The notes beneath the pieces are model-generated. The model did no database searches. It was not told where the DNA came from and was given only the letters and a program-made list of their open reading frames with translations. 54,464 nucleotides of DNA from Candidatus Nanopelagicales bacterium (GTDB lineage: Bacteria > Actinomycetota > Actinomycetes > S36-B12 > GCA-2699445): NCBI GenBank assembly GCA_030700225.1, contig JAUYJT010000057.1, forward strand, positions 1 to 54,464, in the 5' to 3' direction. The position numbers were made by a program, and so were the translations under genes. The number at the start of each line of letters is the position of its first letter. Positions within the stretch are counted from its first letter, which is position 1. This document shows positions 52 to 1,683 of this stretch, one piece after another.

Positions 52-189
52 ATGTCCGACAAAGAAGACACCAACGACAAGACCGCGCAAGACGCCCCAC
101 TGACCGACGAAGAAGCCCAATCCGTGCAAGGCGGCGCCGCCGTAACTCGACGGGAGGAGGCAGAGGCGCGCATCGCCGAAGTCAGGTGA
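52..189 (+). CDS. Short double-glycine leader peptide (putative peptide precursor), copy 1
   Basis: This 45-residue ORF starts with ATG behind a GGGAGA ribosome binding site. Its first 28 residues are acidic and polar and end in LTDEEAQSVQGG. That resembles the double-glycine leaders of bacteriocin and RiPP precursors, where a modifying or exporting protease cuts after GG. The remaining 17 residues are highly charged (Arg/Glu-rich) and contain no Cys. The second copy at 350-502 shares 25 of the 28 leader residues but has an unrelated C-terminus. No modification enzyme or transporter is visible in the window, so the precursor role is inferred from leader shape and the leader-constant/core-variable pattern. 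A duplicated small protein of other function is possible. Confidence 0.5.
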   Translation: MSDKEDTNDKTAQDAPLTDEEAQSVQGGAAVTRREEAEARIAEVR

Positions 190-349
190 ATCGTCGTCGC
201 CTCTGAAGGTTAAGGTCTCAGCGCCTCCGAAGATCCCGTTGAAGGCCGCGACCGGGTGTCGCTAGCGCGCTGCGGTGGCGATCATGGACGCGGAGTCATA
301 GAGTCACTACTGGCTGACATCGTGTCGGCCGAAACGACGGGAGACAGAC

Positions 350-502
350 ATGTCCGACAAAGACAACACCGACGACAAGACCGCACAAGACGCCCCACTC
401 ACCGACGAAGAAGCCCAATCCGTGCAAGGCGGCCGCCGCCAGGGCGACCCGTCTGCCTCGTCGGCTCTTCTGGCCTCTGAAGCAGTCGCTAAAGAAAGCT
501 AG
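350..502 (+). CDS. Short double-glycine leader peptide (putative peptide precursor), copy 2
   Basis: This 50-residue ORF starts with ATG behind the same ribosome binding site context as copy 1. Residues 1-28 match copy 1 except at positions 5, 6 and 8, and the two codon differences in the rest of the leader are silent. After the QGG motif comes a 22-residue segment rich in Ser and Ala (QGDPSASSALLASEAVAKES) that differs from copy 1. Selection on the leader with freedom in the tail is what is expected for peptide precursors. The following 138 bases up to the hydrolase stop codon hold only the repeated 20-base block and nothing else I recognise. Confidence 0.5.
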   Translation: MSDKDNTDDKTAQDAPLTDEEAQSVQGGRRQGDPSASSALLASEAVAKES

Positions 503-640: not shown

Positions 641-1564
641 TTAGACGGCGGGCTGGTGGCGGGTGAGGAACTCCCGCGCCGCCGCCTGAGCTTCCTCGGC
701 GTGAGGGCTGAGCCAGAACCCGAGGTGAGAGCCCTCCTCGACCCAAAACCGCTCAGCGCCGGGGATGTGCTCATAGGCGTAAACGCCGTCGTAGAACTTC
801 ACGTCCGCGTCGTGAGTGCCGTGGACGATGAGGCTCGGGCACTGGACTTGCTCCACCGGCAGATGGGTGAGTGTGCGAAAGAGCGCCATGTCGTTCTCAG
901 TCCCTGCCTTGCGAGGACCGTAAGGACTCATCGTGTTCATGAACGCCCGCACGAACTCAACAGCCTGCGGAGATCTGAGCGCGCGCTCAATGTGGGCCTT
1001 GATCTGATCCTTGGTGAAGTACCCCTCTGACTTGAAGATCTCCTGGAGGAACCACTCGGGTTTCTTCTCCCCAATCACCTTGAGCAGTCGCTGCCCCGAC
1101 GATGTCGTGAAGATGGCCTGGGAGATCGCGCCTGCGGTCTCGGGCATGTCGTAGAAACCGCTCACAGCGTCGATCGCCACCATAGCCCACACCCTGTCCG
1201 GGTGACGGACCGCGAACATGTAGCCGGGCGGACCACCAGCCGACGCGGAGACCACCGCCACCCGATCAACATTGAGGACGTCCAGCAAAGCGGCGAACAG
1301 GTCGGCCTGATCCTCTATTCCAGCGCCGCTTTCCAACGGGGTGCCCAGATATCCCGGACGCGACACAGACAGCAGCCTGTACTCAGCAGGGTCAAGCCAA
1401 TCCAGCATCAGCCGGGCCTGGTCCACGCCACCGAGCCCGCCGTGAGAGCACAGGATCACAGGTCCGTCCCCAGGGCTCAGGTCGTATTCAACCGGGCCCA
1501 GAGCGGTCTGGATGACCTTGGGTTCGATTGTGATTCCAGGCAGCAGCTCCTCATGTTCGCTCAT
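641..1564 (-). CDS. Alpha/beta hydrolase
   Basis: This is a 307-residue alpha/beta-fold hydrolase of unknown substrate. It shows an oxyanion-hole type HGG segment early on (CSHGGLGG), a nucleophile elbow VSASAGG with Ser as the likely nucleophile, an acid in VHGTHDAD, and the catalytic His in EEGSHLGFW near the C-terminus. I chose the ATG at 1564 because GGAGAG lies about 7 bases upstream; a longer in-frame reading to 1690 would run into the divergent trehalase gene. There is no signal peptide, so it is probably cytoplasmic. It diverges from the trehalase gene with about 119 bp between starts. A 58-bp relic of a close paralogue lies at 4234-4291. Confidence 0.85.
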   Translation of the reverse strand: MSEHEELLPGITIEPKVIQTALGPVEYDLSPGDGPVILCSHGGLGGVDQARLMLDWLDPAEYRLLSVSRPGYLGTPLESGAGIEDQADLFAALLDVLNVDRVAVVSASAGGPPGYMFAVRHPDRVWAMVAIDAVSGFYDMPETAGAISQAIFTTSSGQRLLKVIGEKKPEWFLQEIFKSEGYFTKDQIKAHIERALRSPQAVEFVRAFMNTMSPYGPRKAGTENDMALFRTLTHLPVEQVQCPSLIVHGTHDADVKFYDGVYAYEHIPGAERFWVEEGSHLGFWLSPHAEEAQAAAREFLTRHQPAV

Positions 1565-1683
1565 GTCGCTCTCCTGCAGTCGGGTTCCTGTCATGCCATC
1601 ATGCCCAGAACTCGACTGTGATGCCTGGACGGTCGGCCCGCCGATGGGCCATCCGGGGCAGTCCGGCCGGTAGCCTGGCGCCC

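Follow-up and report, generated by a model that had tools for sequence, protein, structure and literature searches.

The window, that is, the whole stretch of 54,464 nucleotides analysed here, is contig C57 taken from its base 1, in a genome of 2.6 Mb assembled into 85 contigs. At its left end lie two short open reading frames on the plus strand, 52-189 (precursor gene 1, 45 aa) and 350-502 (precursor gene 2, 50 aa), each starting with ATG and each preceded at 6-7 nt by a ribosome-binding-like GGGAG (41-45 and 339-343, respectively). Their 28-aa leaders, MSDKEDTNDKTAQDAPLTDEEAQSVQGG at 52-135 and MSDKDNTDDKTAQDAPLTDEEAQSVQGG at 350-433, agree in 25 of 28 residues, with mismatches at positions 5, 6 and 8; re-reading the window sequence confirmed both the coordinates and this identity, which the original prediction had reported. 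The shared leader terminates in LTDEEAQSVQGG, and the cut at the double-glycine site of precursor 1 is predicted after base 135 from the C39 consensus (PMC6363468). The tails that follow, a 17-aa core AAVTRREEAEARIAEVR (136-186) and a 22-aa core RRQGDPSASSALLASEAVAKES, are unrelated to each other. The two genes are embedded in conserved flanks: upstream regions at 1-51 (cut by the contig start) and 285-349, and 3' blocks at 205-250 and 494-540 (83% identity), the latter being the final element of the array in the window. The second cassette is followed by a gene for an alpha/beta hydrolase (641-1597, minus strand) that is unrelated to the array. Pfam and NCBIfam gave no credible match for the two window precursors; the TatA matches at E 0.04-0.1 are at chance level.

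When window positions 52-502 were searched against the entire genome, contig C4 was the only other place with matches, on the minus strand close to the left contig end. With one precursor as the query, three copies on C4 were found in addition to the two in the window, and none in 59 related genomes; there were likewise no precursor matches among 72,556 plasmids. The three C4 copies are intact (L005 760-891, 480-623 and 190-336), represent the same cassette of about 300 bp, lie inside 0.9 kb beside a YcaO-TfuA gene pair, and have the cores AAVRRKEENLFVPEG (copy C4_1), AALRRSEWILEAKEENLRL and GAASVTVEARLRVTETDSGG. Given these three further copies, the pattern of the window pair is not due to chance. 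The mean pairwise DNA identity of the five copies is 94% in the 51 bp upstream, 90% in the leader and 31% in the core, and it is 82% (four copies) in a block of about 46 bp 3' of the core. Complete divergence after GG, as stated originally, is true of the window pair but not of the family, in which the tails of three of the five copies start with AAV or AAL with RR shortly after, and KEENL is common to two of the five. A promoter scan of C4 1-1200 gave no sigma-70-like site.

Four alignment columns vary within leader codons 13-28; each is a third codon position, and every change is silent (P about 0.002 if the changes were placed at random). Because one of the antisense frames likewise shows silent changes only, this variation alone does not fix the strand; we argue for the strand from the ribosome-binding-like site, the GG motif and the corresponding motif in the relative G113 (see below). 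The upstream DNA is conserved as much as the leader, as might be expected if the repeats were a non-coding REP or MITE-like element with incidental reading frames, but the five copies in the genome all lie within two arrays, the second half of the leader varies silently only, and a matching motif occupies the equivalent place beside YcaO in G113; we find this explanation barely credible. It is also conceivable that the array consists of decaying duplicates, with one or two copies functional and the tails varying for want of constraint, considering that the tail differences between C4_1 and C4_2 include indels and frame shifts and that a probable IS lies beyond the third C4 copy. Such decay seems unlikely to us: all five reading frames are intact, with a start, a ribosome-binding-like site and GG, the changes in leader codons 13-28 are silent throughout, and divergent cores behind a constant leader are typical of multi-precursor RiPPs, for which hypervariable cores are reported (PMC4603692).

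The original prediction saw no maturation gene in the window and proposed looking to the left of it for additional copies and for genes of the C39 or YcaO type; such genes, as well as the copies, are found on contig C4 of the same genome. The C4 genes run from the array outward, on the strand opposite to it, in the order YcaO, TfuA, HlyD-like, C39 peptidase-ABC exporter, second ABC subunit and pentapeptide-repeat protein. YcaO and TfuA are adjacent (L005 1048-2178 and 2181-3617; PF02624 at 4.8e-61 and PF07812 at 2.7e-40), with the precursor genes beside the pair, and this YcaO is the sole one in the genome. Its best relative among solved structures is MJ1094, and for TfuA it is 6xp8, a structure whose description assigns that TfuA to peptide backbone thioamidation. 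The exporter contains a C39 peptidase domain (PF03412, 2e-31), in which the motif QMEATECG (Gln, Cys), His and Asp, read in the sequence, are all retained. The transporter parts are near kin of the NHLP bacteriocin export models and do not reach their curated equivalog cut-offs: NHLM_micro_ABC1 at 5.6e-241 (802 bits vs cut-off 853), ABC2 at 5.1e-189 (630 vs 709) and HlyD at 1e-33 (117 vs 156). At the far end of the cluster, the pentapeptide-repeat protein (L005 9091-9816) has a lipoprotein-like signal (LLLGACS), and its gene may serve self-protection.

Bases 1-73 of the window are an exact repeat of copy 2 on C4. Bases 1 to about 155 of C4 (L005) are the end of a multicopy element, of which about ten other copies, near 90% identity, sit mostly at contig ends; the element, probably an IS, interrupts the assembly at numerous contig ends. 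The 73-bp exact repeat at the start of C57 together with the termination of C4 in this element make an assembly break inside one array likely. The five cassettes are confined to two contigs, both arrays are at or near a contig end, and if C4 is reversed and followed by C57, all five precursors point in the same direction, head to tail. We infer from the contig ends that C4 and C57 belong to one locus, which would put the window cassettes in the same locus as the C4 YcaO-TfuA pair; thus the window is likely to begin with the broken-off end of a natural-product cluster. In practical terms, an assembly can split a RiPP cluster in such a manner that orphan precursors are on one contig and the enzymes on another.

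In a structural study of a C39 protease, leader residues Leu-12, Leu-7 and Val-4 occupy a hydrophobic groove ahead of the GG site, and the ComA recognition pattern is cited there as L(-12)-X3-E(-8)-L(-7) (PMC6363468). The acidic, 28-aa leader of the array has L-12, E-8, A-7, V-4, G-2 and G-1 at these positions. Judged by these residues, it fits the C39 consensus apart from position -7, where Ala stands in place of Leu, which counts against our explanation. So does the presence of three C39 exporters in the genome (on C4, C61 and C20), two of them beyond C4. The precursors had also been compared to Nif11-like ones; this part is not supported, since the two window precursors match no Pfam family at E 1, the Nif11 domain (PF07862) included, whereas the precursors of the sister clusters do match Nif11.

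Of 166 genomes of the order that were compared, G113 is the only other one whose TfuA resembles ours this closely, and its YcaO-TfuA pair is the closest to ours (identity of 49% for YcaO and 46% for TfuA). Just 5' of this pair there is a short reading frame, ...DDALNDEEIAAAQGG-GVAEQAERDHAAILADEGLIGSEDKHK, whose 5' side is cut by the contig start; the leader upstream of this nearest YcaO relative ends in LNDEEIAAAQGG, i.e., it is a GG leader. A leader profile run over 395 genomes of the class gave, outside this genome, only weak matches (best E 0.002), which we judged to be chance. The leader is limited to this genome and, by motif only, to one relative, which again counts against our explanation. 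A phmmer search revealed no leader-like reading frames near the actinomycete and mycobacterial relatives of YcaO, where precursors of other types occur, and no NHLP-type C39 exporter was recognised by homology within up to 10 kb in these relatives. In the YcaO tree, our protein and that of G113 fall on the side of actinomycete and mycobacterial YcaO-TfuA proteins, and the order's other YcaOs, including those of Nif11-type clusters, are separated from them (100/99 support). The cluster thus joins a YcaO-TfuA pair of the actinomycete type to an exporter and a cut site of the Nif11-cluster type.

Concerning the role of YcaO-TfuA, it might be objected that the leader and the C39 exporter are enough for export and that the cores are ordinary-looking and charged, so that the array could encode unmodified double-glycine peptides (bacteriocins or signals) with the YcaO-TfuA pair serving another substrate. 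We consider this decidedly unlikely: the pair adjoins the array and contains the only YcaO of the genome, G113 retains a GG leader directly 5' of its own pair, and no second precursor type was recognised at the C4 locus. The reading as a RiPP precursor with a double-glycine cut site, already proposed from the window alone, gains support from the C4 copies together with YcaO, TfuA and the C39 peptidase-transporter.

The nature of the modification is a separate point. Azolines and amidines are also made by YcaO enzymes, and four of the five cores contain at least one Ser or Thr, so that the precursors could be GG-leader RiPPs in which YcaO-TfuA forms azolines or amidines on some cores. Cys is absent from all five, and the core of C4_1 (AAVRRKEENLFVPEG) lacks Cys, Ser and Thr, which excludes azolines at that core; no cyclodehydratase partner (C-protein) or dehydrogenase was recognised in the C4 cluster, and YcaO and TfuA are most like the McrA-thioamidation pair. 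Such alternative chemistry appears highly unlikely to us, and the association of TfuA with YcaO and the C4_1 core point to backbone thioamidation as the likeliest YcaO chemistry.

We therefore propose the following mechanism. Each cassette would encode the constant acidic leader and a different short core; the leader would recruit the YcaO-TfuA pair, which is presumed to put at least one backbone thioamide into the core. Judging from the gene content, the catalytic residues and the leader motif, cleavage after Gly-Gly would fall to the C39 domain that the NHLP-type ABC exporter carries, and a set of linear peptides of 15-22 residues would then be secreted by this exporter together with the HlyD-like protein and the second ABC subunit. 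Since the cores diverge while the leader and flanks are near-constant, one enzyme set could make a small peptide library. We believe that the two window reading frames are, with good probability, precursors of such a YcaO-TfuA RiPP cluster and close an array of five or more cassettes, the products being thioamidated, cut by C39 and exported. That the secreted peptides act as antagonists or signals is a guess.

The closest known arrangements differ in one or another component. The TfuA-YcaO clusters for thioamidated RiPPs in Actinobacteria, the RiPPER set with thiovarsolins among them (PMC6511847), are similar in having adjacent YcaO and TfuA beside small precursors, and in the tree the array YcaO sides with the actinomycete and mycobacterial YcaO-TfuA proteins; our cluster differs by the double-glycine leader and the NHLP-type C39 exporter. 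Nif11-leader TfuA clusters with GG cleavage (PMC8120280) occur in the order too (e.g., L041, L048, L049 and L051) and share YcaO-TfuA, GG precursors and, at several loci, NHLP-type ABC transporters, but their leaders are of the Nif11 type and about 60-65 aa long, compared to 28 aa and no Pfam match in the array, and the array YcaO belongs to a separate supported clade. The NHLP/Nif11 TOMM clusters (PMC4603692) are comparable in their hypervariable cores, NHLP-type export and, in some, tandem precursors; here, the lack of a recognised C-protein or dehydrogenase and the presence of TfuA indicate that ours is not an azole cluster. Class II lanthipeptide systems (prochlorosins and the LahA set, PMC6363468) likewise combine numerous precursors, divergent in the core, with a single conserved GG leader, and the LahA precursors are cut by one C39 protease. 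LanM is absent from the C4 locus, being seen only on contig C61 with Nif11-type, Cys-containing precursors; taken with the Cys-free cores, the earlier view that a lanthipeptide is unlikely stands.

TfuA clusters with GG precursors (PMC8120280) and multi-precursor RiPPs with hypervariable cores (PMC4603692) are already known, and the clusters of known thioamide RiPPs are reported to be without transport-related proteins (PMC8120280). Neither the genome and plasmid collections that were searched nor the papers screened contained the short leader family. We judge the locus to be a real, partly split YcaO-TfuA/C39 RiPP cluster with a short leader not described before and hypervariable cores. To our knowledge, few thioamide RiPPs are known, and it is tempting to see here a new subclass of them that combines an actinomycete-type YcaO-TfuA pair, a C39/NHLP-type exporter and minimal 28-aa double-glycine leaders, with a cassette array in which only the core diversifies between constant flanks, and a secreted library of linear thioamides; we offer this as a tentative possibility. 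The built-in C39 exporter, the very short leaders and the five natural cores could make the locus a compact system in which to determine the leader residues and core amides that YcaO-TfuA uses.

Several observations were made along with these results. Modelling of the TfuA homologue of G113 gave an all-helical C-terminal half, and in a structure search with the whole model the sole clear match was between its N-terminal half and TfuA 6xp8; a leader-binding winged helix in TfuA's long C-terminal half, an idea considered beforehand, gained no support from this whole-model search. Contig C61 of the genome (G000:C61; L123 314-592, 1021-1311 and 1269-4580) carries a separate class II lanthipeptide cluster, in which LanM consists of DUF4135 and LANC_like, the Nif11-leader precursors end in SGG and have Cys-containing cores, and the C39 exporter is some 2.5 kb from the LanM gene. 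The third C39 exporter, on contig C20 (G000:C20; L124 1325-6015), has a second ABC subunit, and no precursor was recognised there by the filter used.

At the order's other YcaO-TfuA loci the precursors are long and of the Nif11 type, and several of these loci have NHLP-type transporters. Tandem Nif11-type precursors of a sister family lie beside YcaO-TfuA-NHLP clusters in L048 (9354-9605 and 9697-9948, with identical protein sequences) and L049 (6986-7240 and 7386-7640). The precursor L043 3743-4039 has a Thr-rich tail after GG (GGGDTITTTTTTTTVTASASAAVAT) and is found beside two tandem YcaO genes and TfuA. Mycobacterial YcaO-TfuA loci (L063-L104) contain tiny reading frames of 26-31 aa of the form M(S/A/T)HE(L/I/V/M)LF.., which begin alike and diverge in their acidic tails; no relevant paper on MSHELLF or MAHELLF turned up in the literature searched. 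There are 30 of them in 23 loci (e.g., L075 9251-9334, 9517-9600 and 9704-9787), mostly a few hundred bp 5' of YcaO, with several paralogous loci per genome and tandem triples in two loci, and they look like candidate miniature precursors.
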